Below are positions 1,216 to 47,935 of a stretch of DNA of 64,000 nt, one piece after another. Where the stretch lies: contig CP141138.1 of assembly GCA_035236585.1 (NCBI GenBank), positions 31,197,437-31,261,436 of the forward strand, in the 5' to 3' direction. The position numbers and the translations under genes are program-made. Under the pieces are notes generated by a model. The model saw nothing but the letters and a program-made list of their open reading frames with translations. It was not told the DNA's origin and searched no databases. Within the stretch, counting starts at the first letter, position 1, and every line of letters starts with the position of its first letter. This stretch comes from Warburgia ugandensis. Its lineage: Eukaryota; Streptophyta; Magnoliopsida; Canellales; Canellaceae.

Positions 1216-1479
1216 ATTTCTCTTAAGAGTTTCCCTACTTTGGTATCAATCTTCAAGAGTTCTTCTACTTGTGAAGATTCTAGTTCTAGAGCTTGCATAT
1301 TTTGTCATTGCTATTTTTATAAATATTAGACTTGTGAAGTTCTTCTTGCTCTGAGTTTTCTACTATAGTTTCTTTCTAAAAGAATTTTTCCTTTGAAGAG
1401 AGAATTGAAGAACTTTATATTTTACAAGCTTCATCTTGTAGACTAAAGTTGGAACCAATCTTGATCATGCAAATCAATT

Positions 1480-1482
<3 letters not shown>

Positions 1483-1514
<32 letters not shown>
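1483..1514. repeat. (AT)16 microsatellite
   Basis: An uninterrupted AT dinucleotide run of about 32 bases. Confidence 0.95.
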
Positions 1515-1517
<3 letters not shown>

Positions 1518-2498
1518 GTGTACCTTGGTTGAATACCCAAGATAGAGATTCCATATCCCTTGTACTTGTTGGGAGGCTTTAGTTGTCTTTAAGAAGCTGC
1601 TTTAAGCATACCTCTAAGCTAGGTTTCATCAGTTTTATTTTGTTCAAGACTATATGATTCCAACATAAATACGATTACTACTTTATTATTACTAAGTTAC
1701 ACAAATATAAGAAAGAGATTTTGAGTTTATACTATATTTCATATACTTTGTATATTATTTAATATTTCATGTAATATAATAATATAATGTAATTGTCTAA
1801 AATACTTCTATAGTGATAAATAGGAAAAGCCTAAACCAACCCTACTTTGAATTGTCAAAAATAGAGACGATGGTTTAGTTTTAAAAACTTGGTATATAAA
1901 GAAATATGTATATAAAAAAGTGAAGATATTTGTGAAAATAAGGAGGTTACGAGAGGACGAAACTTGTGATCCTTTTATTTATTTATTTATTTGTTATCTT
2001 ATTTATTGATATTGATATTTATAATCTTCACTAAGATGGGTAGAAGAGGCAAAAATGAGAACACAATCAAGATACTCTAAGTAAGAGAGTCAAAGATATT
2101 TTTTTAATGGTTAGTAGAAGGCTTTGGAGCAAGAAATGGCCCTACCTATTCACGAAGCATCAATCTGCCGTTAAAACTTCTCTTTTCGGTCAATTTACCA
2201 CTTAACAAATACTAACAAGTCAATATCATCCATTTCACTAACAACATTACTTTTTGCTATTAGATTTCACCGTTCATATTGTTTGCCTTATGCATTTGCT
2301 TTCGTAGTCTATCTTGATGACTTGGAAGCGACTTTTTTAACATGGCACTTCACGTCAGACTAGGACTAGTCATCTTCTTTCCCTCTACTCTGGAGGAAGT
2401 GACACTGATTAGAGTACCCAATAATGAGTTGTAAATGGGGAAGCTAACCCAATTAAAATCAAATACAACTCATTAATATATACTCATAGACTTTTCAA

Positions 2499-2650
2499 GG
2501 CTTGGAGAACTTACAAGGTATTAGTTACAAAGAAATACTACTCAGGCTAGAAGATAATTCAAGGGATTAGTTGCAAAGAAATACAACTCAGACTTAGAGA
2601 ATTTCAAAGGACTAGTTGCAAAGAAATACAAAGGCTTGGAGATTTTTCAC
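2499..2650. repeat. Tandem repeat, three and a half copies of a 42-47-bp unit
   Basis: Units start at about 2499, 2544, 2591 and 2633. Each carries GGCTTGGAGA or a variant followed by TTAGTTGCAAAGAAATAC. The unit is not seen elsewhere in the window. Confidence 0.8.
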
Positions 2651-5600
2651 AAGATTTGTTTCATAGAGAAATTGTTGTAGAGTTTTCAGTGGATCCCAAG
2701 GAATCCATTTATTGATTTGGGATTGCAAATAGATTGAGGAAGTTGTAGAGTAAGGATGAACCTCTACAGGAAGAAGGAGATGAAGAAGAAGCAGCATTTG
2801 TCTCATTTCTCTAGGGTTGTTTCATGTAAGGAGACCTAGAGGATGATTAAGTAGAAGGCTAACAAGGAAACTTCTAGAGATGCAATGAGAAAAACCAGCT
2901 CTTTGCCTCTAAAAATTATACTGCCACTTGGGTTTGACCCTTTCCCAAAATTCAAGTCTTTTAATTGATTAATAAACCATGCATTTTATTTTTGTGTATA
3001 GCACAAATAGATTAAAAACTTTTGGAAGTTTTTATGTTCAATGTTTTCTTACTTCATCATTTTAGATATATTTATTACTTATTTTCATAGATTTGCTTCA
3101 TTTTTAATGTTTAATATGGTTGTTTAAGTTTTGGTGGTGGTGAAAACATGGAAAAAAAATGGCAGGCCCCACATCACTGCTACAATGGACGCATGTCGGT
3201 TGTCTTACGTGGCTATCCCCTGAATTACTTCAATTTTCATGTTAGAAAAACTGCAACACACGTTGAGAAAGTAGAGCGCCTACTTAACAGAAAATGAAAG
3301 AGTACTCCATGACCTTTGGCGGAAAGGCTAGTGTGTAAATTGAGTTAATCAAAAGTTTAAGGGAAGGAATGAAACATTTGTCATAGTTTAGGGGACAGTT
3401 GACCTTTTGCCTTAATAAAATATTAGATCATTTTTAAATAAAATAATGAGGTGATATTAATACTGAAACTAGATGATAATTAAAGACAAGTTTCATAGTT
3501 TGATTAACAATGAATACTCAAATTGAAGAAATGAATTTCAAGAAAACATCAAAAGCTATATGAGATTTAGTCGACATTCAAAACAATTTTACTAATTGTA
3601 TGATGCACAAAAGAGGAAAAAAGATTTTTCTTGCTTTGGAAATAAGAGAAAAATGTCTAAATTACTCTCAAGACCAAAACACAATATTTTTATTATAGTA
3701 TCAGTAATAATAGGGAAACTGTATGAATATTCTCATGTACTACACCAGCAAAAACACATTTGTAAGAGCGGAAAATTAAGCTGGTTTTCAAGGAAGATAA
3801 GTATAAACATGAGAATTGTAAAAGTGCAACTTGAGGGTCCAAGGTGTCCTCCTAAAAGTTTATACACCATCTTTCGTAGTTCTAGTATTGCTTCCCATTT
3901 TTTTGTGGGTCTCCACTAAAACTCAGTTTAATTTAGGTTATTTGTGCAATTCAATGGCCAAATTAGGGTGTCATATTGGAGTACAATACATACTCATCAT
4001 AATCTAGAATTACTAGTAATTCAGAAAGTTGTTACACTTCTCGAATTTAATGTAAACCAAATCAAGAATTAATTTATCAAAAAATATCTAAAATTTAATG
4101 AATAATAATGAAATTCCAAATATTATTTGTAAACCTAATTCAATCCTGAATCAAATAATAAAATTAGTATAGTGCTCTTTCCTAGACTTGTTTCTAACTC
4201 TACCCAGATATTTTTGGAACATTCTAAAATTTGTCTTGCAAGTTTATTATTAATTCTTAATTTTGTAACTGCAGTTACTAGTATGGTTTAAACCTAGCAT
4301 GATTGGCTGTTCAGTGATCTCCTTGTGGTAAATATTTCATGAATAGGATCGAGAAGATGCATCAATCCACGCAAAATGAAGACAAAACCCCATAGTGGGC
4401 TGCTACGTCGATAGAAGCAATATAAATCATCCGTGATCCATGATGCAAATTCTGTAATCTTCCACGAGCTCTCCTTCAGGAGCAAATACATCCATCCTCT
4501 GTGGTTGATCTGGGAACCTGAGAGAGAGACCTCATAGTTCAATCATAGCCTTTATACGATCCATTAGTGTCTAAAATCTCCACGGTGGTGATTCATCCTC
4601 CTCCATCTAACCAATTACATTGGATGAGTCACCTTCAACTGCAAGTGGCATATGTTTATTAGAGTACGAAAATCCGAGATGCCTGAATTTCCATAACATG
4701 TTCCATCAAAATCAAGTTTAAAGCAGTTTGGAGGAGCTGTTCCAGTATTATTAGTCCTTTTAGCTATTAATTAGCCTTTTGGTCTTTTTTCTTTTCCTCC
4801 TCAAGTCAATCCTTCATGGGTGTGACGTAGGAGCTTAGGAAGTTCAAAATAGCAATGCCATTGATATTTCACTTAGGAGATAAGGAGGCGTGTTAATGGG
4901 TCCACTATGTTGGTCCTTGTTCAAGCCCTAAATTTGTCATTTGGGTATGGATGGATCTTCATCCACGACCCTTCATGAAAATGCCAAAGTCACAACAAAC
5001 AAAGTGGTATGGACCCCATATCCACCATGAGCTAACCAGCTAATTATTTTTTTATTTATATTACGTATTGGACAAGTGAGGATAGCGTAGCTTTGGTGTC
5101 AAGACTATGTCTTCTTAGGTGAGCCACATGGATAGGTTGTTAATTCAGTTCAATCTTAGAACAATGATGTTTGTAAGGAATTAGAAAAATAGAAATACTA
5201 CCGCACGACACCACCACATGATAAGTTGCCGCGTCGCCTCAAATTTGCATGAGGCCATCTTTGTTGATCCAACCTATTCATCTCCAACTCTGGATCTCTA
5301 GTAATCCAAAAATCAAGTGGAACTAAAAAAAGTTCGGTAAGAATTGGTGAATCAAATAGGATGAGTGAACTCCCTCTTCAATTCATTCTTTTAAATGCTG
5401 AACTCAAGTATTGGATGACTTTACAATCGGAAAAAAACAGTAACTTTAATCACAGGAAATGAGGCTTGAAAACATTCTACAACAATGGTCTGGACTGAAC
5501 CATAAAAAGAATGATCGTTTGAACGCTAGAATCGTCCAATTTAATTGTTTTGGGTCAGTTAGATGGGATCGGTCAAAGCCAAAGGGCTCGCCTCCGGCAC

Positions 5601-9963: not shown

Positions 9964-11591
9964 TGTAATGCCTTAAGCATTTCCACTATTTTTGCATCTA
10001 TTTTAGAAAAATGAATTGGACATTCTATATGAAATTAACCATGTTAAATATTTTATTTTATTTAAAATAGTAAACAAATAAATTTGTAAGAAAAATTAGT
10101 ACCATTAGATTCTACATTCAAAATAAAATCCAATGCCTCAAAGAACGCCGAAAACGGAGTTCATATGACAAAGTTATGGGAATTTGAATAGAGGTGCATT
10201 TTTATAAAATACAATTAAAACAGAACGATCCAAAAACATAGGGGGCCGTTTAACTAACGGCACCCCCTCCAGGTCGTCTTCCACCTCCAGCACCAACCAG
10301 TCAGGCAGTGCACAGCACCGCCATAAGCAGCACCACCTTGGCAGGGCTATAAGAAGCCCTCTTCCCTCCTCCTCAACCATCCCTCCTTTTCCCCATCTCT
10401 AGCTACCTTGAGCAAGGGTTTTTGGCCCGGCAAAAATTGAAAAACCCTCTTCCAATTTTCCTTAGGAATTTCGGCAATGGCCAGGTCCTTTCCTTGGGCC
10501 GGCCATTCCCCTCTCTTCTCTTTTTCTCTCCTTCTTCCTCCGGTCTCACCGAACATTAAGGTTTTTCTCTGCTTCATATTTTTCGGCGAGCAGGGGTTTC
10601 AAAGTGGAGAACAGGCACACCCACCGGCAACTCCTTAAGCTTTTTCCCCTTCTTCCCTACCCAAATCCATGCCGAATCTAGGCGTTTTCTAGCTGGAAAC
10701 ATTGGGAAAAAACCCAAGCGTGATGGGTCTCTTGACCCATCGAATAAGGTTGGTTCTGGGATGCCACACGTGATGTAGGCTTGGAACGCACTCCCTGGGG
10801 CAACTGTTGCAAGTGCGCTGCGTGGTGGGTTTCCGACTTGATCGGGATGCATGGGGCGTCCTGGGGGCCGAGACGCTTCACAACTGCACAGGAGACGCAT
10901 CCGCGCGACTCAATCCAAGACATACGCAATCCAAGACACGCGTCCGCGCTTCGTATGTGGATCTATTGATTTCTATTTCATGATTTTGATCATATTTATA
11001 TCGTTGAATACTAGATTATGAGAAATGATTCCATGATTGAAATTGCATCAATAAGCTTATGTTTTGTGCATAACTATGAATGCTTACACAAAAAGAATCA
11101 CTGATATTTTACATGAAAAGCTCTTGGAATTATGCATGTTGCCTACCGTGTTTTCAAAATAGTAGTATCAGATCACCTACTGAGTATGAGAAATACTCAC
11201 CCTAATATATTATTTTTCCAGATTAGCTCCGCACAGGAAAAGAAGAAGCATCAGAACATGTTAGTGCTAGGATCAAGTGAATGAAGAGAAGACAAGCATG
11301 CATGTAAGTAAACACTCTACATTTTTGGACATGTTTCTATATTTATTTACAGTTGGGATGTGAGCTATGACTGGATAGACCTGGGAAGACATTTATGATA
11401 TTCAAAATTTTCAAAACTACTTTACTCACCTCGAAAGCAAATGACACTCGGGGTTTTCAAAATGAATTTAAAACAAAGGATTTTCTACTACATTGCATTG
11501 TTTTCTAAAAATGTTTTCCAATAGGGATCGATCCAGCCTTAGGAATTAGATATTGCATTTAAAAATGCATGAGAAAACCCGGGTAGTCACA
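9964..11591 (+). repeat. 5' LTR of element C (1,628 bp)
   Basis: It runs from TGTAATGCC to GTCACA. It matches both ends of the right LTR closely but is shorter than it, because the central block present in the right copy (about 16290-17447) has no counterpart here. A GC-richer block around 10250-10960 is shared with the right LTR and is the likely promoter and leader side. Confidence 0.85.
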
Positions 11592-15268: not shown

Positions 15269-18090
15269 TGTAAGGCCTCAAGCATTTTCGCTATTTTTGC
15301 ATCCATTTTACAAAAATGAATTGGACATTCTATATGAAATTAACCATGTTAAATGTTTTATTTTATTTAAAATAGTAAAAAAATAAATTTGTAATAAAAA
15401 TTAGTACCATTAGATTCTACATTCAAAATAAAATCCAACACCTCAAAGAACGCCGAAAACAGAGTTCATATGACAAAGTTATGGGCATTTGAAGATAGAG
15501 GGGCATTTTTGTAAAATATAATTAAAACAGAACGACCCAAAAACATAGGGAGCCATTTTACTAACGGTACCCCCTCCAGGTTGTCTTCCACCTCCAGCAC
15601 CGACCAGTCAGGCAGTGCACAGAACTGCCATTGCCAATGGCGGCACCGCCATAGGCAGCACCGCCTTGGTAGGGCTATATGAAGCCCTCTTCCCGCCTCC
15701 TCAACCATCCCTCCTTTTCCCCATCTCCAGCTACCTTGAGCAAGGGTTTTCGGCCCAACAAAAATAAAAAAACCCTCTTCCAATTTTCCCTAGGAATTTC
15801 GACAATGGGCAGGTCCTTTCCTTGGGCTGGCCATTCCCCTCTCTTCTCTTTTTCTCTCCTTCTTCCTTCGGTCTCACTGAACATTAGGGTTTTTCTCTGC
15901 TTCATATTTTGTGGCGAGCAGGAGTTTCAAAGTGGAGAACAGGGCACTCATCGGCGATGGGCACTCTCCTAGATGGCCCAGGTAAGCCCCTCACACCTCC
16001 TTAAGCTTTTTCCCCTTCTTCCCTACCCAGATCCATGCCGGATCTGGGCATTTTTTGGCTGGGAACATCGGGAAAAAACCCAAGCGTGATGGGTCTCCTG
16101 ACCCATCGAATAAGGTTGGTTCCAGATGACACACATGACGCAGACTCGGAATGCACTCCCTAGGGCAACCGTTGCAAGTGCGCTGCATGTGGTGGGTTCT
16201 CGACTTGACCGGGACGCACGGGGCATCTCGGGGGCCGAGACGAGTCGCAACTGCACGGGAGATGCGTCCGCATGACGCAATCCAAGACATGTGCTTTGGT
16301 GTGCTGCTCGGGCGCACGCACTCGTGAACAAGGTCCTAGTTCGATTGGGACGCGCACGCGTCTTGGGAATCGTGACGCGCAGGGCCCTAATTAACACATC
16401 TAGGTCATCCATTGATGCACGACACTAAAAACCCAATTAAGGAGGCTATATAACTCCGATCAATGATCCAAAAGACCCATTGCGTTCTAATGATGACACG
16501 GACCTAATGAGACTATAAAAATTAGGATATGAGAACTATTTAGTATGACTCTAGCTTGAACACTATAGAGATCTTCTAGATCTACCAGATCAAATATGAT
16601 AAAAAAGGGCAGATCTATCCGTTAATCTAGAAATCTAAATAGTGATCTATAAGTGGATAGAAAATGATATTGGCATCCTTGTTATTCATGAACATCCAGG
16701 GTTTCACTAAGATGGGTTAAGGTCAAGAAATGAAGAACGGGATACATGAGACATTGAGGTAGGTAGTCTGATACTACTTTGTTTTCAAAATGCATCCCAA
16801 ATTGAGTTACCTGTTTCTATTGCTGCAATTAGTATGTATTTTTAAACCATGCCATTCTTATATGAGTTTCCATATTTATAACATTAATTACGGTACTAGC
16901 ATGAGTAGAGTTATGCCATGCTTGCATACTTCGAAAACAAATGCATAAATTGCATGATTTATGTTGATTTGAGATTTCGACTATGTATATTTTTGGCCTA
17001 TTGAGCCTAGTGGGCACTATGTTGAGGGGTACGGGTTTGGCCTCCCGGCCTCTACCACCAAAAAGGTGGATGGTATCGTTGTCAAAAATGACATTGTCCC
17101 TTCCCTGACTGCTGTGGTAAATAGGGACGACCACTGGAGGTGTTCACAGCACCCTTTCGGGGACATATCCATAGTCGCCGTGGAGGCTATGGTGGACTGG
17201 TCTCTAGATACTAGAGACACGCGATCTAGAGGGGTTCTAGTCATGAGCGTAGTGGCCCTATGATTTCAGTGTGGTTGATATGCATATAGCATTGAGATGG
17301 TCATATACGAGCACTCGTGACCAGTTGACGTAACGTGTATGCCGAGAGACTAATGTGCATGATACTAGCATCTGTTTGAACAATGACTATTTTTAGAGTT
17401 TCATGACTATTATATTTGACTCACTGGTTTGATGCATTTGCCGAGATCTTCGTATGTGGATCTATTGATTTCTATTTCATGATTTTGATCATATTTACAT
17501 TGTTGAATACTAGATTATGAGAAATGATTCCATGATTGAAATTGCATCAATAAGCTTATGTTTTGTGCATAACTATGCATGCTTACGCAAAAAGAATCAC
17601 TAATATTTTCCATGAAAAGCTCTTGGAATCATGCATGTTGCCTACCATGTTTTCAAAATAGTAGTATCAGATCACCTACTGAGTATGAGAAATACTCACC
17701 CTAATATATTATTTTTCCAGATTAGCTCCGCACAGGAAAAGAAGAAGCATCAGAACATGTTAGTCCTAGGATCAAGTGAATGAAGAGAAGACAAGCATGC
17801 ATGTAAGTAAACACTCTACATTTTTGGACATGTTTCTATATTTATTTATAGTTGGGTTGTGAGCTATGATTGGATAGACCTGGGAAGACATTTATGATGT
17901 CCGAAAATTTTAAAACTACTTTACTCATCTCGAAAGAAAATGACACTCGGGGTTTTCAAAATGAATTTAAAACAAAGGATTTTTTGCTACATTGCATTGT
18001 TTTCCAAAAATGTTTTTCAATAGGGATCGATCCCGCCCTAGGAATTAGATATTGCATTTAAAAATGCATGGGAAAACTTGGGTCGTCACA
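15269..18090 (+). repeat. 3' LTR of element C (2,822 bp)
   Basis: It runs from TGTAAGGCC to CGTCACA and covers the whole left LTR plus a central block of about 1.2 kb (GC-rich around 16290-17260). The length is typical of Tekay/Del chromovirus LTRs. The short open frames inside it have no recognisable product. Confidence 0.85.
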
Positions 18091-19240
18091 AGGTGGCCTT
18101 TGTCCATTGATTTATACTAGATACTAGCTTGACAAGAGCTTAATTCAAGAGTAGGCTTCATGGGAGATGCTCCTAGGATGAAGCGAGTAACCCCATGAGG
18201 GCTGGTGGGAGTCTGTGCGATATCCGCAGCAGACATAGTGGTGTGACGGTAGTTACCTGGGGTGATGGTAGTGCCATATGAGCATAATTGTCTGATTAAC
18301 TTTGGATATTGGCTAACATGTCGGACATTCTCAAGGTTTGGTTATGTCCTAAAAAGCAAGTGGCTTGCAAGAGTTAGCCTAGAGTCTATGATAGGATGGT
18401 TATGCCACTCAGGAGTATATCCACGAGGGTTATGTCATGATTGTGGACATGTTAGTCAATCTTGAGAGCCTAGACCTTGTCATGATGGTAGGACTATGTG
18501 CCATCCAGTTTATATTTATTGATTTCCATTTGGTGGATGTTAGATTTTGTACTCAGTTTCATTGTGGATTATGCCTTTAACCTCATGGATTGCCGAGAAT
18601 TTATAGCATCAATGGCTTATTGAATTTAACTCAATGATTGGATTTTAGGGGCATTGGGTATGATATTTGCATTTGCATTTGCCTTTTGTACTCTACTTTT
18701 TATATGTGAAACCAATCACTAAACAAGACTTATTGAACTATTATACTTGATCCATATTATCTTGAGATATCCATGAGACATTCTCATATATATGTGTGTG
18801 TGTGTGTGTAGGGATACCTATATATATTCATAGTGGGCAGTTGTTTTTCTCACCCTCCACAACCAACATTTTTAGGTAATATACCAGCTAAGTTGACAAC
18901 ACAAGAGAAGGGGAAGGCTAAAGTGACAATTGCTTGAGGCTAGATATATGGACATGATCTCTAATGATATGTTAGACTTAAATTTTCATATATGTATTAG
19001 TCTTTTGTTGACATTGGGACAGTATAAACCTTAAACAAGACTTTACTTTATGTGTGATGGTTATTCTATGATTTATAAGTGACCAGTAGATCATGTGGCA
19101 TGTACATCTAACCTTTTCCTAGGTTAGACATTTATTTTACATATATGTGAAGATTTTAGAAGGTAACACCCAAATAGAAGAGGATTCTTTTAAAAATACT
19201 TATATTATATCACACAATTGAATTCTTCAAAAATAAGGAA
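18091..19240 (+). mobile_element. Right part of the chromovirus F LTR
   Basis: This continues element F after the C insertion. It carries the phrase TTCTCACCCTCCACAACC and a purine-rich AGAGAAGGGGAAGGC block near 18906, which occupy the same position as the CTCACCC...AGAAGAAGAAGC block near the end of the C LTR. A short (TG)8 run lies at 18793-18809. No clean LTR terminus or primer site is visible before the gag remnant. Confidence 0.5.
18793..18809. repeat. (TG)8 microsatellite
   Basis: A short TG run following an ATATAT tract inside the F LTR. Confidence 0.9.
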
Positions 19241-21155
19241 ATTTTCTGACTAGCTAGGCTACATTTTGATGGCCCACTGCTCAGCGAAGCTACTTTGAGA
19301 GCGGTGACATTATTTCTTGGGACAAATTTAACGTCATCTTGACTAAGAGGTTTCTTCCTCCTCAAATATAGCAGAAGATGGAGCTATAGTTCCTGAGCTT
19401 GGTACAGGACTTCAGGATGGTTGCTCAGTATGAAAAGAATTCTTATGTCCGTGTAGATTTTCCCAGATGCTTGCTTGATCAAGTTGGAACTAGCACAAAA
19501 GTTTCTTCAAGGGCTGAATTTTGACTTGAAGAGATAGATCTTGACTTCACAGCCTACCACGGTAGCTAAGGTTGTAGAGTTTGTGACCATCCTTGAGAGC
19601 GAATTGAGGGATACTAGCAGGGATAAGGGAAAATTCAGTAGCCCTAAGCTAGAAGTAGTTGGAGTGCAGAAGAAGAAGTTCATCGACAGGAGGACTTTTG
19701 TGTGATAGGCTATGCTGGCATTGGGATAGATTATAGGAAGGGATGGCGATTAGGGGGTGTGTTAGAGGTGCCAGAAGTGCCTTTTGGGTAGAGCTTGTTG
19801 GGTGGTGCTATCATGTGTTTCACTCATGGTCAATAGAGCTACTTTTACAGGGACTACCTTACTTTCAAAAGAGTAGTATAGACATGATAGGATTAGGCAC
19901 CGCACGAGGCTCAAGTACCACATCAAGATTAGGCCCTCAGAACTTAGGGGTGAGTTTTCACTATTACTACCAAAGAGACTCACACATCCAACGCTGTTGT
20001 GGAAGGTACACTCTTGGAATTTGATAGATATGGCCTACTCATTCATTTATTTTAGGTAGTTTTGTATCTTTTGCTTGTTAAGGCGAGTAGACTAGGATTT
20101 CTTTTGGAGGTTAGTACTCTGGTGGGTGCATCATTTATTGTTCTAGTTTATATAGGATAAGGGACTTAAAACTGATCTAATGATCATAGGGATGACGGAC
20201 TTCAACAACATCCTAGGTATGGATTGGTTGGTAGAGCATGGAGCCCTGGTCAAGTGCAAGAAGAAGCAAATGGCTTTTTACACTCCATATGAAGATTCTA
20301 TATAATTTTAGGGCTGGTTGGATACTTTAGGCATGAGTATCATCTTTGCTTGTTGAGCAGCCCAACACTTGTCAAGTGGATGCAAGGCTTATCTATTGGA
20401 GACTCAGGATGAGTTGATGCCTCACATAGAGAGATTGATGTGGTAAGGGAGTTTGGAGATGTATTCCCAAAGGAGTTGCTTGGTTTATTGTCTAGGTGAG
20501 AGATGGAGTTCACCATTAAGCTACTACCGGAAGTAGCTGAGGGTTTAAATATAGGAGTTGATATATTAGGATTTCATTCACCCTACTATTTCACCATGGG
20601 GAGCTTGAGTCTTATTTGTGAACAAGAAGGATGGCTCCTTGTGGCTTTGTATGGATTACATGTCACTGAATAGAGTCATGGTAAAGAACAAGTACCCTTT
20701 GCCTCATATTGATGATCTCTTTGACTAGTTACAGCCAGCCAAAGTCTTGTTTAGGTTGATCAAAGGGTTGGCTACCATCAGCTGAGGATACAGGAAGAGG
20801 ATGATTCTAAGATCTCATTTAGAATTTGATATTGTGATTATGAGTTTTTGGTGATGCCATTCGGCTTATTGAATGCACATGCAACATTCATGGACCTGAT
20901 GAATTGGGTGCTTAGAGACTACATGGACAAGTTCGTGATAGTATTGTCGACAATATCCTCATCTAGTCCAGTAGTGTTAAGGAGCATCGTGAGAACTTGA
21001 GGACTGCGGTAGGAACTTTATGGGTACATCCCTTGTATGTCAAGTTCTCAAAGTTGGAGTTTTGGCTGGACTAGGTTCATTTCCATGGACATGTCATATC
21101 CAAGGATGGAATTGCTGTAGATCCATAGAAGGTGGAACCAGTATTTAACTAGGGC
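19241..21155 (+). mobile_element. Element F interior: Tekay/Del-type chromovirus gag and pol, broken
   Basis: Gag-like sequence around 19290-19440 carries the F-x-KRFLPP region and the AQYEK-like motif typical of plant chromovirus Gag. Around 20210 the segment LGMDWL marks the protease-to-reverse transcriptase boundary. Around 20610-20730 there are motifs like FVNKKDGSL and [11 protein letters not shown] of chromoviral reverse transcriptase, and VMPFGL-like sequence follows near 20850. The element stops near 21155, within the reverse transcriptase region, where it meets an unrelated Athila scrap. Many breaks are present. It is older than element C, which sits in its LTR. Confidence 0.8.
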
Positions 21156-21179
21156 TGAGTCTAATAATAGAAGGAGATA

Positions 21180-21590
21180 ATTGCATTATGTTCACTATTG
21201 GGTATGCACCTCCTACTGACCTAATCAGGATAGTACTTAAATAAGCATGGATCATCCGAATTAAAGCATTGAACCTTGGCAACAACTAGGCATTTGACTT
21301 GTAACAAGATAATTGACTATGTCTCCATACCAAGGTAACTAAGAATGTGCAATGGTTGTTCATCCAAAAAAGTTTTTGTTATAGGTACATTTTCACTAGT
21401 ATTCTCTGCCACTAGCCTAGATAATTGGTTTGCTACAATGTTTTGGAAACCTTTATTTTCACAAATTTCAAGATCAAATTCCTATAGTAGTAGTATCCAT
21501 CAGATCAACCTAGATTTTACATCTTTGTTAGAAAGGAGATATTTTAGTGCTGGATGTTCTTGTATACTATAACCTTAGAAAACAGTAGCT
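21180..21590 (-). mobile_element. Athila-like pol fragment (RNase H to integrase linker)
   Basis: Read on the minus strand, this matches D at about 59030-59450. Shared words include VANQLSRLV, ITKTFLDEQ and the RRCIPNSE-like start of the integrase zinc-binding region. Both ends are abrupt. It lies between the end of chromovirus F and the host-derived island and is a broken fossil. Confidence 0.7.
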
Positions 21591-22029
21591 TCATTTACAA
21601 AAGACACTCAGTTGTCCAATTGAGTAGTAAGAATCACTATTCCAAGAAAGTGAGTCATAAAAACTAAAATAGGCGAGAAAGAAATAAATGCCAAGTGGTT
21701 TTGAGCTATCCCCACATAGGAGTTTAGATATAAAGAAAAAGAAAGAAATTCCTGTCCATAGGACATTTAACACTTTGGCAAGAATTAGCTACTTTAACCA
21801 GCTTGGAAACTTAGCATGGCAATGCTTGAAACATTTTAAGTATAAGGTCACTATCAGAACCTTTTGATCCTTGATACCAAAATGTATCACCATTTCTAAA
21901 GGTTATTGTAAACCAGGTTACCGAACCTCACCATTCCCCATCTTCTCATATCACGTGCAATCTTCTCAACTTAGTAATTTGTTCTCTTGATAAGCTGTCA
22001 ACGTGATCCAACAACTTCAGGGCAATAAA
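21591..22029. other. Non-coding DNA downstream of the kinase pseudogene
   Basis: No recognisable coding or repeat is seen. It lies beyond the last kinase exon on the minus strand and may be its former 3' untranslated and downstream DNA. Confidence 0.4.
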
Positions 22030-23090
22030 GAAAACCAGTATCTATGAGCAGAAATATATTGTTACTCAGCTACTGTGAAAGGATATTCTAGTGACGCTCT
22101 TGAGGTAGGTTTTCCTTGATCATTTAATGCTTCTTGAGAATCTCTAGGAAAGAAGGCCATTGGTTCATATTAGCAGCCCAGCAATGCTCTGTCAACCTAA
22201 GACATTCAACAAGAGTTGGAAGACACTCAGGGTATTACAAGTTACAATCATACTATTGCATTGTGTGCTATCAACAAAAAGGTGTTTGAAGGTTGAGCTA
22301 ATAAAACATATATCAAGGTGCAATAGCAAACTACTAAGGATAGCAATGAGGAACTCTTAGTGGAGCTTTGCTGATGAAACAAACTAACTTGCAGACTTTT
22401 GATAAAAGAAATGTGAACTGTCATTTGTTCAAAATGCTTAAGAGAGTCAAGACTATTTTATTTCAGTCTGTTAGAGATTTTAATATTAATCACCAAGAAT
22501 CAGAAACTACAATGAAATGCAAAATGCTAGATGTTTTCAGACCTAAATAGTTTAGATGTTGTGTGATTTCAATATGTTGGACTTACACTGAGTTCAGAAA
22601 GGTATCCTTTTGCTCTAAAGCTAGACCTGTGTCCTTCTACGACATACTTGGTAGCTTCACAAGGTTCATAGCTTGCTAGCTGTGGATCTCCTTTGAGCGT
22701 CTACAAAAAAACTTATATGGTTAGTAACAAGAAAAAAGGACATTCATCTATCATTCTCCATAGAAACTCTTAGAAAAGAAAATTACCTCATACAAGATCA
22801 TAGCAAAAGAAAAAATATCAACTTTCTTGCCATGTTCATATGCTTGAAGACTTCTGGAGCCATATACCAGTCTTTGTTCCAAAGACATAAAAACAATTTA
22901 GCATGCAAAGATCCATGCCTCACAAAAATTAATTAATAAATAAAATAATAAAATTGAGAAATACTCACAGCTTCCAGTCTCTCCTATCATTTTGTAAACA
23001 TCATGAGAATTGTGGACCTTGATGAGCTTGCTTAGTCCAAAGTCACCAACCTTCAAATGGTTTGCATTGGAGTTGACCAATAGGACATTC
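22030..23090 (-). pseudogene. 3' exons of a VIK-type (VH1-interacting, Raf-like) protein kinase gene, decayed
   Basis: Four exon remnants follow in order on the minus strand. 22969-23090 encodes RNVLLVNS, VGDFGLSKLIKV (DFG motif) and KMIGETGS. 22787-22871 encodes YMAPEVFKH and, in a shifted frame, KKVDIFSFAMILYE (APE motif). 22587-22700 encodes GDPQLASYEPCEATKYV and GHRSSFRAKGY. 22030-22196 encodes LTEHCWAANMNQWPSFLEIL. Donors GTGAGT and GTAATT and an acceptor CTTAG lie at the joins, so introns are kept and this is not a retrocopy. Word matches fit plant VIK (At1g14000), an ankyrin-repeat serine/threonine kinase acting in vein patterning, better than other Raf-like kinases. It is broken: the ankyrin repeats, N-lobe and HRDLKP catalytic loop are missing, the second exon has a frame shift near 22830, and the last exon has stops at 22124-22126 and 22088-22090. 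Confidence 0.85.
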
Positions 23091-23299
23091 CTTAAATTCA
23101 AAAATTTCAGTCAATTGATAAAGAAAACTACATAACAAATTTCATAACACTTCCTTATAAATCTAGAACTTAACCAGCTCAGTTTGGTTTCCTAGGCTCA
23201 ATTACCTCTATGCCCATTTTCAGTTTTATGAAGGTTTAGCCTAGTTTATCTACTTGGGAAATTTCTACAAAATAAAAGTATTTGTTGCCCCAAAGAACC

Positions 23300-23400
23300 T
23301 AAATTTGGAATTTCAAGCAACATCTGGAATACTATAAATTCACAAATTGTTGAAAAGAAAAAAGGTAGCTTGGTTGAATAAAACGTGAAGATGCAAACCT
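23300..23400. repeat. Copy 1 of a ~100-bp local duplication (partner at 23630-23730)
   Basis: CAACATCTGGAATACTATAA and the following AAAGAAAAAAGGTAGCTT are repeated about 330 bases to the right with some changes. The duplicated piece covers the spacer beside the NAD(P)-binding gene fragment. Confidence 0.85.
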
Positions 23401-23544
23401 AAAACCCAAGTCACTTGATTCACCCATGACTCTGTATAAGAAGGCTGCCTTGACCTGTAAAAAAATCAAGCTCTAACATCACAAAGCATTATCTACTAAA
23501 ATTAAAAGTGTAAAGTACATTGAAACAACTTACAAGCAAAATGA

Positions 23545-23840
23545 TCTCTACAAAAGTTAGGTCCAAACCTGCTTAGGCTGATAATGTTGATCCCCTTTGA
23601 GACTGTTGCTTTACATATTGCAGAACCAACAAACTGCCATTTGGGTCTTCATCAAACAACATCTAGAATACTCCAAATTCATAAATTTTTGAAAAGAAAA
23701 AAGGTAGCTTAATTGAGAATAAGTGTTTGGATCTCAGATCCTTTCAGTCTTCACATGAGCAACAATATGTATTGGAGCAGGGAAGTCTTCTCTTATGTTA
23801 GCAGCATAACTACATCTGATTTTACTTCCAGAATGCAATC
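23545..23840 (-). pseudogene. 5' exon remnants of an At1g32220-like plastid NAD(P)-binding Rossmann-fold gene
   Basis: On the minus strand, 23737-23840 reads SKIRCSYA and then VAHVKTERI. 23545-23638 reads FVGSAICKATVSKG and then ISLSRFG. In the plant family (At1g32220, a plastoglobule-associated chloroplast protein of the extended short-chain dehydrogenase type) RCSYA ends the transit-peptide side, VKTER follows, and GGNGFVGSAICKA is the dinucleotide-binding loop, so the order is right. The two remnants are parted by 98 bases holding the duplicated segment, and a stop directly follows KTERI. The glycine-rich start of the loop and everything after the second beta strand are absent. It is a pseudogene. 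Upstream DNA to about 24200 may be its leader and promoter. Confidence 0.75.
23630..23730. repeat. Copy 2 of the ~100-bp local duplication (partner at 23300-23400)
   Basis: CAACATCTAGAATACTCCAA and AAAGAAAAAAGGTAGCTT match copy 1. It separates the two NAD(P)-binding gene remnants, so it may be a former intron or a later insertion. Confidence 0.85.
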
Positions 23841-24132
23841 TATCACAAGCAAATAATGTCAATAATTCAAGAACATACCCCTAAACCACAAAGGCTCCAA
23901 CATTTCTAATCAAAACTTAGAAATTTTTTAGACAGCAAGGCAAGAAAAATCCCATTTTCAAAGAAGAAAAAATAAAAAATTGCGGGACTAGTTTGCATGA
24001 GTAAAAAACTGTGACAAATGAAGAATATGATGGAAACCACAAGAAAATTGTGGAATTAAATTTAAAAGATAGTGCAACGGTAGGTTATTTTGAGAAGCCG
24101 AAATGGTTTTCTCCTTTGCCTATTGGGAATTC

Positions 24133-24140
24133 CTTTATAG
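24133..24140 (-). promoter_or_regulatory. Possible TATA box of the captured NAD(P)-binding gene fragment
   Basis: CTATAAAG on the minus strand lies about 300 bases upstream of the first recognisable coding remnant, in DNA that lacks transposon similarity. It is positional evidence only. Confidence 0.3.
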
Positions 24141-25446
24141 GATGAAGAATACGACGCCCCTATTCTCTCTCTAAAAACCTATGTTCAATATGATTTTTCT
24201 CTCTAGAAAGGAGTAGAATCTCATATATGTCCAAGATATCAAATTTAAATAAATATAATATCTCATATATGCATAATATATCATAGTTAAATAAGTTGCA
24301 CATTTGAGATATGCCATGATATCTCAGAAACACCAAACATACATTGTTAAATAAACCACCCTAAGTTTTTCTCTTCACACCTTGCAAGAACTAACTTTAA
24401 ATGGTTCAGGAACTCATCAAAAGAAGAACTGAATATTGTGAAGTCATCCATGAATACCTCTAGAAACCTCCACCATGTCTAAAAATATGCTCATCATACA
24501 AATTTGGAAAGTGGCTAGAGCATTACAAAGTCCGAAAGGCATATGTCAATAAGTGAAGGTTCCAAAAGGGTAGGAGAATGTAGTCTTATCTTGATATTTA
24601 GGTTGTATAAAAATGTGGTTATATCCGGAATAACCATCAAGGAAGTAGGTATAACTATGACTGGCTAACCTCTTAAGCATTTGGTCAATGAAGGGAAGAG
24701 GAAAGGGGTCTTTCCTCATGACTAAGTTAAATTTTTGGTAATTGATATGAACTCTCTACCCAATGGTCATGCGAGTGGGCTCTAACTCAATATCCTTATT
24801 TTTTATTACCATGACTCTAGATTGCTTGGGTACAACTTGAACTGGGCTTCCCTAAGTGCTGTCAGATATGGGGTATGTAATGCCAACATCTGAAATCTTA
24901 AGTACATCTCTTGCACCTCCTTCGTATAAGGATTTATTCTTCTTTGTGTTTCCATGGATGGTTTAGAGTTTTCTTCTAAGTGGATCATGTGCATGCACAC
25001 AGTTAGACTAATCCCCTTTATATCTACTATGCACCTTAGAGTAGTCTTATGTTCTTTGAGAATATTAAGAAAGTTCTTTGAGAATATTAAGAAAATTTTC
25101 TTCTTGTTTCTAGTCTAAATTTGATGCTATAATGATATGCAAGGATTAATTTGGTCCTAGGTAAGAGTATTTGAGATTATCTGGTAAGAGATTTAGGACC
25201 AGAGAAGGTGGTTGCTCTATAGTAGGTAGAGGGACCAATTCTAATGGTGGGAGTGGGTCCACATGAGGTCCTCATTTGGAGGTATCCATGATTAGCATTG
25301 CATCTAACATATTATTTACCTTCTCAATAGTCTTCTCCATATCAAAATCAAAATTAAAGTGCATTAGACATGCCTCAATTGGATCTGAGATGGATAATGG
25401 TAGATTAGTATCTTGATTTAGACCTTCAATTAAATTTACTTTATAA

Positions 25447-25459
25447 GAATCATCTAGGT
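25447..25459. repeat. Target-site duplication, left copy, of the LINE insertion
   Basis: GAATCATCTAGGT is repeated exactly at 25721-25733, directly after the LINE tail. Confidence 0.95.
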
Positions 25460-25720
25460 AATAAGATGAGGGAGATTAGACTTAGATGGTTTGGACATGT
25501 CCAAAGGAGACCAACAACAACACCAATTAGAAGGAGTGAGGCAATACAAGTAGAAGGTTCTAAAAGGGCAAGGGGAAGGCCCAAAAGAACATGGATAGAA
25601 GTGGTGAGGAAAGATTTAAAAACTTTGGGACTAAATGAAACCATGGTATTTAATAGAGTGGAATGGAGGAATAAGATTCATGTGGCCGACCCCTAATTGG
25701 GATAAGGTCTTGATGATGAT
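25460..25720 (+). mobile_element. 5'-truncated plant LINE, 3' end only
   Basis: A 261-bp insertion is bracketed by a perfect 13-bp duplication (GAATCATCTAGGT). From 25466 to 25696 one frame stays open and ends in a natural stop. It reads RLRWFGHVQRRP, then GRPKRTW, and ends in HVADP, which is the conserved C-terminal end of plant LINE reverse transcriptase ORF2. The short 3' part reads GACCCCTAATTGGGATAAGG and finishes in GATGATGAT, the usual plant LINE tail. The uninterrupted frame and exact duplication suggest a fairly recent insertion by target-primed reverse transcription. It lies inside element G in the opposite orientation. Confidence 0.92.
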
Positions 25721-25733
25721 GAATCATCTAGGT
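25721..25733. repeat. Target-site duplication, right copy, of the LINE insertion
   Basis: Exact match to 25447-25459. Confidence 0.95.
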
Positions 25734-28490
25734 CTAAGTGTTGATGATCGGCATTAAAGACATTAAGCTTGACCTTCATATTGTCGAAAGACAGCTTCAT
25801 CACACCGTTCTTAAAATTTATGATGGTGTTGGACATTGCCAAGAATGGACATCTAAGCATGACTAGAATCTGATTATCATGGTCAAATACCGACTGGGTA
25901 TCTAGTACGATGAAGTTGATAGGATAGTAAAACTGGTCCATCTATATCAAAATGTCCTCAACCATACCACATGGTATATTTATTGATTTATCTACCAATT
26001 ACAACATGGTGCTGGTTGGTTTGAGGTCAACAATCTTTAGTTGCTCATAGATAGAATATAGAAACATATTGACACTAGCCCCTAAATCAAGTAGTGCCCC
26101 ATTGATGATATGATTGCCAATAGTATATTTAACAGGAGGACATCCTGGGTCTCTAAACTTTGGTGAGGTCTGGTGCTTGATTAAAGAGCTCACCTGCTCA
26201 GTGAGGAATCATTCTTTTGCACATTAAGCTTTCTCTTTCGTTTGCAGAGCTCTTTAAGGATCTTGGCATAAGCAGGAATATCATTAATCACATTGAGCAA
26301 TGGGATGCTAATTTGCACATGCTTGCATACACCTATTAGCTCATTGAAATTTACTCCTTTCTTAGCCTTGTTTAGTAACTAAGGAAATGGAGCTTTAAGC
26401 ACATAGGGTTCCCCCACTATAGGTTCAGTAGGAGATTTTTGTCTTTCTCTCTTGCGTTTTACAAGTTCCTTCTCCTCTATAATTTCCTTAGTTAGTCCTA
26501 CTTGATTATTGACCTAACGGCTGCTCTTAAGGGTCATTATAGACTTGCTTGCTCATGAGAATGGGAGGTTTGTGAACTATACGTTATTTCAAATTGGCCT
26601 TTAGGGTTAGTGATGGGTTGACTAGGAAACTATACTCTTCCTTTGTCATGGAAAGCAATTGACAATTGGTTCATTTGCATTTCTAACTTTGAAATAGCTT
26701 GAGAGTTGACATTAGTTGAATGTTGACTATCATTCTACAATTGGTGTAGGGCCTTGTTAGTCTCTTCATTTTGTTTTAAAGATCTTTCTATGAGTAACTA
26801 TACATTCTCCTCAAATGTTGGTTTCTTTTTTTGTTGCAAGAGTTGAAAACTAGGAGGTTGCTAGGGAATTGAAGCTATAGGAAAGTTCTATGTGAGGGGT
26901 TCATAGATGGTCCTCCCTAGTAGTTGTTCTTGGACCATGAAAAGTTAGGATGCTTAGCCCATCCTATATTATAGGTCTAAGAGTAGGGGTTATTGTTGGG
27001 GTTGCGATATACATTCATGGTATTCGCTTGTTCTAGAAGATATTCATTGAACACCTTATTGGATGGACAAGTTGTGGTTACATGGGTTGGGCTATAGCAA
27101 ATAGCACAAACCTCTGGAGGCTTAGTGGATTTAGTAGCAGCCAGAAAGGTCAAAAACATATTTTCAAGATTGTCCACTCTTCCATCCAAGGAATCAAAGT
27201 TGTTCATTCTCTCAATCATATAGTTGAGCTTATCAAATATATCTATATGCGTTTCTATTTTGTACATGCCTCCTTGCTTTGGGGTTGAGTATTTCTCTCT
27301 CTTGTTAGAATAATACCATTACTGGGAATTATTAGCCAATGTTTGAAAAAATTTCTAGGCCTCTCTCTCATCTTTCATCATAAAGGTCCCTCACCTTGCT
27401 GCATTGACCATTTGTCTATTTTGAGGAGTTAATGCCTTAAAGAAGTAGTGAACTTGCCTACATTTTTTTAATCTATGATGGGAACACCTTTGCAGCAATT
27501 CATTACACTGTTCCCGACATTCATAATATTGTTTGTCATCTCTTTGCTAAAGTTAATAATTTCCCTTCTAAGGGCATTGGTTTTATGAACAAGGAAGAAT
27601 TTGTTCAAAAACTTCCTAAACAACTGGTCCCATGTATTGATGGAACGAACTTCTAAAGAATTTAGCCCTGACTTAGCTTTATCTTTCAGTGAGAATGGAA
27701 ACAATCAAAGCCTAATTGAGTCATCTGAAAAATTTCAGAATTAAAGTTAGGACAAATATCAAGGAATTCCTTAATATGTAGGTAGGGATCCTCTCTTTCT
27801 CGACTATAAAATGTGGGGAGTAACTGAATAACTCTAGGTTTAAGTTTAAAATGGTTTGCATTTGTGGGAGGTGATGCGATACATGAAGGGGTAATAAGTT
27901 GGAGTGATGCATAGAAATCTCTAATTGCCTTATGCTCAACTTCTGCTAGTTGTTCAGCCATTGGATTAGGGACTTGATTTCTCAACCCTTGCCTATGGGT
28001 ACACTCAATCTCTTGGTCTAGAGGTCCTAGCTCAACATTATGAGATTGATGTCCTTGTGTGCACTAAAATAAACCTATCTAATTGAGGCAACCTAACTAT
28101 ATGATTGCCTAATTCTATATCATGTGTAATCAATCCTAATGGTTTGTTAATCAAGTTGTGGTGATCTTCATTAATCTGTAGGGTGGTAGCTTTTTATACC
28201 TAAATATAGATAGCTCCTCTTTTTATCCAAGCTTGACTATTGCTTGGTAGGTTCTGCTCTAAAGTGGTTAATACAATTCTCATACCAGGAGGCATTTGAT
28301 TTCAACCAACATCAAAGGAAGGCATGGAAAAATCACTTGTATTATATATACCCACTATAACCACGACGCTCAAAAGCCATAGGAGTGACAATAGATCGCC
28401 TCCTTCTAAAAGGTTCCTATGTGCTCAATACCCTAAGTCTCTTGCTACTTGATTTTGAATTAATATTTCAAGGGCTAGGATCACAAACAT

Positions 28491-29192
28491 ATAAGGAATT
28501 TGATTGATTTACCTAGGTGGGCCAAGGATTTGGTGAAGAAATTTAGTCCTTATCTTATAAGGGTTCTTGTGGGGGCCTTATTATCATTATGATCCATTCC
28601 ACCATAAAGCTTTTAAACGTGCAATGCAATATAAGAAAGCAAACTAATTCCTACCTATATTGTATCTATAAAGGGTTAAACACCTCAACAACTAAGACAT
28701 TATAACCATATAGCCTATGCCTTGGTTATAGCTAAGCTTAGTAGAACCTTTGTTAAATAGGTGCAAAACTAATGCAATAGCCCTAAATAAAATGCAACAA
28801 TTATCATGAGTGATCTTATTCTCCATAAGTTAAACTACCATACAAGGAATTTGATTGATTTACCTAGGTGGGCCAAGGATTTGGTATGAAATTTAGTCCT
28901 TATTTTATAAGGGTTCTTGTGGGGGCCTTACTATCATTATGATCCATTCCACCATAAAGCTTTTAAACATGCAATGCAATATAAGAAAGCAAACTAATGC
29001 CTACCTATATTGTATCTATAAAGGGTTAAACACCTAAACAACTGAGACACTATAACCAGATAGCCTATGCCTTGGTTATAGCCGAGCTTAGTAGAACCTT
29101 TGTTAAATAGGTGCACAACTAATGCAATAGCCCTAAATAAAATGCAACAATTATCATGAGTGATCTTATTCTCCATAAGTTAAACTACCATC
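28491..29192 (-). repeat. 351-bp tandem duplication in the leader of element G
   Basis: The two units (28491-28841 and 28842-29192) align end to end with an offset of 351 bases and only a handful of substitutions, roughly 3-5% by eye. The unit contains the conserved leader block (ACCTAGGTGGGCCAAGGAT, then GGTTCTTGTGGGGGCC) that is present once in B and E. Divergence suggests duplication after or around the insertion. Confidence 0.95.
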
Positions 29193-46829: not shown

Positions 46830-47935
46830 TCCTGAGATCATACTCTTTAGATAGGTCTAGACAAACTCTTACAAGTTGCTTGATTTTAATTGTACCCTTT
46901 GATCATAGTCTTTAGAGGGTCCATGGCCAACTCTCATGAGTCACCTTATTTTAACCATACTTGTAGGTTGCTCTCTTTATATGGGCCATGACCAACACTT
47001 ATGAGATGCTTGATTTTAACTGTACCTATAGATTACAGTCTTTAGATGGGCCAGGACCAACTCTCATGAGTCACCTAATTTTAACCATACCTGTAGATCG
47101 TAGTCCTTAGGTGAACTAGAACCTACTCTTACTAGTTGTTTGTTTTAACCATACTTGTAAATCACAATCTTTAGATGGGCGAGGACCAAATTTGACAAGT
47201 CACCTGATTTTAATCATACTTGTAGATCATAGTCATTAGATGGTCATGACCAACTCTTAATTTAACAGTACTAGCAAATCATAGTCTTTAGATTTGCCAG
47301 GACATACTCTTACGAGTCACTTGATTTTAACCATACTTGTAAATGTAGTATTTAAATAGGCTAAGACAAACTCTCAGAGTCAATTTTAACCATCCCTATA
47401 GATCACAGTCTTTTGGTGGGCCAGGACTAATTATCATGAGCTGTGTAATTTTAACCATACTTGCAAATCACAGTTATTAGATGGGCTAGGAACAACTCCT
47501 AATTTTAATCGTACTTATAGATCATATTCTTTAAATGGGCCTGGACATACTCTTAGAAGTTGCCTGATTTTAACCATATCTAGATATCATAGTCTTTAGA
47601 TGGGCCGAGACCAACTCTCACGAGTCAACTAATTTTAACCAAACCTGTTGATAATAGTCTTTAGATGGACTAGGACCAACCATACTTGTAAATCACAGTC
47701 TCCTAATTTTAACCATACCGATAAATAGTGGTCTTTAGACGGACCAGGGCAAACCCTTATGAGTTGCTTGATTTTAATCATACCTATGATCACAGTCTTC
47801 AAAGCGACGAGGACCAAGTCTCACGAGTCAGTTAATTTTAACCATACCTATAGATCACAGTTTTTAGCCAGGACTAACTCTTATGAGTGGCCTAATTTTA
47901 CTCGTATCAATAAATCAATATCTTGGGGCAAAAAA
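46830..47935 (+). repeat. Tandem array, about 17 copies of a 65-bp unit
   Basis: The unit starts ATCACAGTCTTTAGATGGGC, continues CAGGACCAACTCTCATGAGT and ends AATTTTAACCATACCTGTAG. Most units are 59-66 bases, and several are shortened to 33-54. Two variants can be told apart, one with GAGTTGCTTGATTTTAA and one with GAGTCACCTAATTTTAA, and they alternate in places, which hints at a dimeric higher-order unit of about 130 bp. The array starts directly after the part of element B's 3' region that still aligns with element A. Tat-lineage elements are known for hypervariable 3' regions that grow tandem repeats, so I assign it to B. An LTR of another element is the alternative. Confidence 0.9.

Follow-up and report, generated by a model that had tools for sequence, protein, structure and literature searches.

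A probable PIF/Harbinger-type transposon copy carrying intron-containing pieces of two unlinked host genes in Warburgia ugandensis

Introduction

Capture of host gene fragments by transposons with PIF-type ends has been described in several plants. In the Pack-PIF elements of maize and rice, host gene fragments are enclosed by PIF-type terminal inverted repeats (TIRs; Gisby and Catoni, 2022, PMC8903248), and the Pifvine-3 (Harbinger-3_VV) elements of grapevine, as described, behave alike (Benjak et al., 2008, PMC2528002). For the Pack-TIR elements of animals, a model of fork stalling and template switching (FoSTeST) has been proposed (PMC8277862). In the accessible text of a 2026 review (PMC13317346) the word Harbinger is absent and PIF occurs once, as a transcription factor.

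Here, we analyse a related case in the window, by which we mean the whole stretch of 64,000 nucleotides under study (C13:31197437-31261436 of the Warburgia ugandensis assembly). We consider it very probable, judging from sequence comparison, that a unit in this window is what decay and loss of the left end have spared of a PIF/Harbinger-type TIR element, belonging to a family whose 5' region consists of transduplicated, intron-containing pieces of two unlinked host genes. This explanation is built on a joint between the two pieces that recurs at 8 places, on family ends adjoining TAA or TTA, on relatives with both the joint and transposase or Myb pieces, and on the lack of linkage between the donor-type genes; it draws further on the position of the unit inside a Ty3-type element, its lost left end and its decay without exon constraint.

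Like Pack-PIF elements, the family has PIF-type TIRs enclosing host gene fragments. Pack-PIF elements are non-autonomous by definition, whereas in the present family the same cargo also occurs in relatives that have transposase and Myb/SANT pieces. One maize Pack-PIF family is drawn with pieces of two genes, of 163 and 58 bp (PMC8903248), against pieces of ~0.65 and 1.7 kb with introns in the present family. The likeness to Pifvine-3 is one of description; in the present case two donor genes, their joint and a duplication of 65 bp of intron are resolved. With animal Pack-TIRs the family has in common short shared sequence at the joints and multicopy spread after capture (PMC8277862), although FoSTeST was put forward for animal genomes and a comparable mechanism in this plant would be an inferred one. 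The phenomenon is known and ordinary, and the instance is unusually well resolved. Donor-type genes and internal joints can be read together with signatures of decay and with derivatives that do or do not have transposase DNA, which offers a test of gene capture by PIF elements. The locus also carries a warning for annotation, since a gene finder could easily mistake this transposon cargo for a chimeric kinase gene.

Captured gene fragments in the window

The preliminary description of this locus had recognised two gene fragments on the minus strand with their introns kept, each gene truncated where it faces the other, and had excluded retrocopies. Exon order and alignments bear this out, and introns are retained in both fragments. 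The pair is real; its extent had been drawn too narrowly, as the actual unit occupies about 21577-24361. Exons A-D and all further gene models were read from open frames and not with a gene finder.

The VIK-type kinase piece (21577-23320, minus strand) comprises the last four exons, their introns and 3' flank, and starts ~15 bp into the intron that follows donor exon GMAYLHNEPNVVIHRDLKPR. With an Arabidopsis VIK protein sequence as query, tblastn gave matches in exon order over 23101-22091. The exons, all on the minus strand, lie at 22970-23092 (RNVLLVNSNANHLKVGDFGLSKLIKVHNSHDVYKMIGETGS), at approximately 22785-22874 (split over two frames, YMAPEVFKH and KKVDIFSFAMILYE), at 22590-22700 (LKGDPQLASYEPCEATKYVVEGHRSSFRAKGYLSEL) and at 22091-22195, where tblastn places the last exon with an in-frame stop after LTEHCWAANMNQWPSFLEILKKH. 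Introns included, the piece is 89.8% identical over 1743 aligned columns to the genome's own VIK-type gene on contig C10 (locus L012).

The second gene is one that we take to be At1g32220-like. Its piece (23377-24022, minus strand) contains introns and portions of the first four predicted coding exons and aligns at the nucleotide level with an apparently intact gene on C14 (L020:4216-5070) across predicted exons B, C and D, their introns and a 38-bp stretch corresponding to the end of exon A. This last stretch (23985-24022, minus strand) has a local alignment score of 41 in the window and 46 in the copy at L009; none of 300 shuffles of the L009 piece scored above 31. Alignment to L020 sets exon B at 23740-23839 (minus strand), where the donor's GT splice site reads AT. 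Only the 3' part of exon C (FVGSAICKATVSKGI...; 23569-23634, minus strand) is recovered by alignment with the donor and the other copies; ~90 bp around the start of this exon, including its 5' part, are missing from the window copy and present in others. Exon D (SRQPSYTESWVNQVTWVLG) follows at 23399-23454 on the minus strand, and the piece stops ~22 bp into the next intron, at ~23377. The gene is cut on its outer side as well as on the side facing the kinase. Between the two pieces lies a second copy of 65 bp of its intron B-C (23313-23377, minus strand), 88% identical to 23652-23716.

Pfam searches with five window exon pieces gave two kinase matches below the cut-off (best E 0.0027 and 0.023), nothing for two pieces, and for the exon-C piece a chance-like top match, with Epimerase at E 0.21. 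The corresponding donor exon C matches Epimerase (PF01370) at 28.8 bits (cut-off 20.9), and two other donor pieces gave nothing above the cut-off. Since these profile matches are weak or nil in the window, the two genes are identified by their DNA matches to genes of the genome itself.

Ends and relatives of the carrier element

Element copies have a common left terminal sequence, GGGGGTTTATTTAAC...GTATGTTTGGC. TAA or TTA borders this sequence at nine of ten inspected left ends, in some cases separated from it by one or two additional G; the left end of L010 is decayed and does not fit, and the terminal repeat of L022 faces the opposite way relative to its gene piece. The sequence GGGGGTTTATTTAAC, G-rich at its start, is found inverted at the right ends of L011 and of the window copy, and near L032:597. 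Both of the two-ended copies have matching target-site duplications, TTA/TTA in L009 and TAA/TAA in the copy formed by L028 and L011. The right end of L009 matches the repeat at 23/36 positions, a score that a few chance places in the scan also reach, and is accepted because of its GAGGTTTATTTAACTGCG core and its expected position; in the DNA fetched for L016 and L017 no right terminal repeat was found.

In the window, where a search for inverted-repeat ends around 21591-24350 had been proposed, one such end was located: the terminal repeat GGGTGGTTTATTTAACAATGTATGTTTGGTGTTTCTG lies at 24325-24361 (minus strand) and matches the query string from the left ends at 30 of 36 positions. The adjoining target-site trinucleotide TAA (24362-24364) was placed by the terminal scan and by junction alignment with the copies at 44030 onwards and 58420 onwards. 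Two subterminal tandem units of 42 bp, 74% alike, occupy 24218-24301. The end region is high-copy, with 1184 first-look candidates in the genome, 40 of them scored.

Four joint-bearing loci (L010, L015, L016 and L017) continue into common DNA, which in L015-L017 contains transposase pieces. Two pieces pass their Pfam cut-offs, both in L016: DDE_Tnp_4 at 26.5 bits (cut-off 24.8) and Myb_DNA-bind_3 at 24.3 bits (cut-off 23.6). Transposase (PF13359) matches in other pieces of L015, L016, L017 and L024 stay below the cut-off, as does a Myb/SANT piece of L023 (22.1 bits against 23.6), and a piece of L022 has no match. All transposase pieces in the loci read are broken, and none is intact. On the strength of the ends, the TAA/TTA trinucleotides and the transposase and Myb pieces, the carrier of these copies is a PIF/Harbinger-type TIR element. 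L009 and L028 with L011 have two ends and both gene pieces, their TIRs enclosing host coding DNA and no transposase; in the window copy a single end survives, and L015-L017, which hold transposase DNA, fall outside the Pack-TYPE definition. The L028-L011 copy (C5:61331392-61343053) is apparently a two-ended one split by a nested insertion of ~8.2 kb, with ~7 bp of overlap at the edges.

The joint and the donor-type genes

The 1.12-Gb genome, in 14 contigs, was searched with a 551-bp joint query taken from L009 (20 of 20 candidates scored). Match counts in these searches being lower bounds, the joint recurs in full or nearly so at 8 places on 6 contigs at least: one each on C14, C12, C13 (the window) and C3, and two each on C5 and C9. 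The window copy covers query positions 1-538 and the C12 copy 1-550, and the seven places other than L009 itself are 88-93% identical to the query. Recurrence of a 551-bp stretch at 8 places means that the joint is not a product of chance. These are the further copies of the joint fragment for which the preliminary description had proposed to look; the interval that it delimited has at least 38 matches in the genome (26 of 26 candidates scored).

The genes of donor type match only one side of the joint. Kinase-gene places on C10 and C4 match query positions 1-226 or 1-225, and the At1g32220-like places (C14:2.745 Mb and C6:2.618 Mb) match 283-551, except that the C14 place also matches the 65-bp piece, separately. 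Past the joint, the kinase gene runs on in L012 (C10:74.84 Mb) and L014 (C4:55.87 Mb) through exon GMAYLHNEPNVVIHRDLKPR and two further upstream exon stretches. In L012, kinase exons were read over 1237-5475 and the exon stretches matched are open; the DNA fetched for this locus stops short of the 5' end of the gene. The At1g32220-like gene continues into downstream exons in L020 (C14:2.745 Mb) and, more distantly, in L027 (C6:2.618 Mb), and a genome search for these downstream exons (7 of 7 candidates scored) returned C14 and C6 only. Whole-genome searches with kinase protein did not single out a donor, their scored lists being filled by other kinases and element copies; the kinase donor assignment rests on DNA comparison at the joint and on exon reading. 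Two other candidates for the kinase donor were rejected, C3:38.908 Mb (L029) as an exon fragment and C5:9.382 Mb (L045) for its differing VIK-like exon.

In the direction of the genes, the joint runs from the At1g32220-like piece through the repeated 65 bp of intron B-C into the kinase intron. The first switch, from the intron after exon D into the 65-bp intron piece, has ~1 bp of shared sequence; the second, from there into the kinase gene, has 4 bp of exact shared sequence, or 8 bp with one mismatch. The second intron copy at the joint suggests template switching, and the structure as a whole fits template switching during repair synthesis of the kind proposed for animal Pack-TIRs (PMC8277862).

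Origin of the two-gene cargo

We envisage that a break inside an element was repaired by synthesis that copied part of the At1g32220-like gene, may then have returned into 65 bp of this gene's own intron, and would finally have passed, where a short sequence is shared, to the VIK-type kinase gene as template. The transposase of the family would have spread the chimera soon after capture, as the star-like form of the trees described below suggests, and DNA methylation would have silenced it afterwards. The preliminary description had left two explanations standing, capture by a Helitron or Pack-type DNA transposon and a deletion that fused two neighbouring co-oriented genes. Fusion would account for the common orientation and for each gene being cut where it faces the other. 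The donor-type genes are nevertheless on separate contigs, kinase on C10 and At1g32220-like on C14, with paralogs on C4 and C6, which excludes a fusion of neighbours and gives no adjacent parental pair; moreover, the fused unit is found at 8 dispersed places, and a second copy of 65 bp of intron is not expected from simple deletion. We give a deletion practically no chance. Helitrons capture intron-containing fragments of several genes. TIRs flanked by TAA/TTA duplications, together with DDE transposase and Myb/SANT pieces in a relative, make a Helitron highly improbable here, so that of the capture proposal the DNA transposon with inverted repeats stands and the Helitron falls. A CTAA near 21577 (minus strand) was considered as a CTRR Helitron terminus and discarded, other copies running ~0.68 kb further to their terminal repeat. 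Filling of a gap in the Ty3-type element from two unlinked templates was likewise rejected, the unit being multicopy with ends of its own.

It is quite possible, if short of probable, that two serial captures took place, the At1g32220-like piece first and the kinase piece later, instead of one template-switching event. In six copies on the transposase side (L019 and L022-L026) the At1g32220-like piece is present but most of the kinase piece is absent, and L023/L026 and L024/L025 have other neighbours in the kinase position; yet L019 and L022 retain a kinase remnant of ~50 bp and so look like deletion derivatives, and the break in L023 and L026 falls within the 65-bp joint piece, so that these two may descend from a joint-bearing copy. 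Star-like trees were obtained both for the kinase piece (12 rows) and for the At1g32220-like piece (16 rows), with the donors on short branches and the paralogs as outgroups. The trees speak neither for nor against one element clade: element copies are not separated from the donors as one clade (2 changes; the branch side appears in 34% and 27% of bootstrap trees), and the case for a single origin consequently rests on the shared joint.

The same transposase side and At1g32220-like piece are associated with at least three left neighbours: the kinase piece, that of L023/L026 and that of L024/L025. The latter two are further, different sequences, which meet the left side of the At1g32220-like piece at the kinase junction point or close to it. 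We tentatively propose, at rather less than even confidence, that a transposase-bearing PIF lineage in this genome exchanges its 5' cargo as a module and that the two-gene cargo was produced by a single template-switching repair drawing on two chromosomes.

Coding capacity and silencing

The arrangement had been thought to place a host promoter and transit-peptide region upstream of a kinase tail. This was not borne out: the captured At1g32220-like part takes in no more of exon A, the first predicted coding exon, than its last ~38 bp, no start codon or upstream DNA of this gene was found in the element, and a blastn comparison of window positions 18000-28000 with the 10-kb donor locus returned no match to donor DNA upstream of the captured part except a dispersed repeat. 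The window copy is further damaged by a frameshift, an in-frame stop, the changed splice donor of exon B and the loss of half an exon.

Divergence of the window copy from the donor is 8.4% in exons and 9.4% outside (p 0.57); for donor and paralog the corresponding values are 7.0% and 16.0% (p 1e-6). Measured in this unpolarised way, all 10 element copies diverge slightly less in exons. That difference vanishes once the paralog is used to assign changes to the element lineage: the window copy has 31 changes in 408 exon positions and 70 in 1025 non-exon positions (p 0.65), and in none of the 10 copies do the two rates differ (p 0.23 to 1). The lower unpolarised exon divergence is put down, from these polarised counts, to constraint on the donor's own branch.

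On the element lineage of the window copy, C>T/G>A changes affect 27/104 CHG sites and 19/401 CHH sites, and each of the other nine copies likewise has the higher fraction at CHG; between the two genes, donor and paralog, the values are 8/123 and 43/468. CG sites do not clearly separate element copies from the gene pair (window 15/36, paralog 12/34). Because its exons change as fast as its introns and CHG cytosines mutate in excess, the window copy looks like a methylated, unconstrained relic, silenced and non-coding. That its chimera is a functional new gene or regulator is very unlikely given the stop, frameshift, changed splice donor, missing half exon and lack of any start codon found, as well as the absence of exon constraint and the CHG-type decay.

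Setting of the window copy

The remaining element (21577-24361, gene fragments on the minus strand), delimited from the copies in L009-L028 and the terminal repeat scans, has its right end, and ~0.68 kb on the left are gone. It sits in a Ty3-type element on the minus strand, whose reverse-transcriptase DNA stops at the TAA, from 24365 upward, and which resumes with its RNase H region at 21171-21577 (minus strand). By arithmetic on alignment coordinates, ~0.5 kb of the Ty3-type element is missing between the two sides in comparison with another copy in the window. From these alignments, the window copy is one that inserted into the Ty3-type element and afterwards lost its left end along with ~0.5 kb of the host element; a single subsequent deletion spanning that end, of roughly 1.2 kb, could have caused both losses.

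The same Ty3-type element contains an insertion of ~262 bp at 25459-25722, with AATCATCTAGGT on both sides and a GATGATGATGA tail. Copies of it, 91-97% identical, occur in L012, L014 and L023, and its translation resembles what we take to be the end of a LINE reverse transcriptase, so that it looks like a 5'-truncated LINE. Elsewhere in the window, two head-to-tail units of 350 bp, 96% alike, lie at 28488-29191 in DNA matching other Ty3-type copies, and a diverged tandem array with periods of ~65, 119 and 130 bp lies at 46831-47917. Repeated blocks at 9964-11591 and 15269-18090, 85.5% and 95.5% alike and about 5-6.5 kb apart, are possibly LTRs or a duplicated element.
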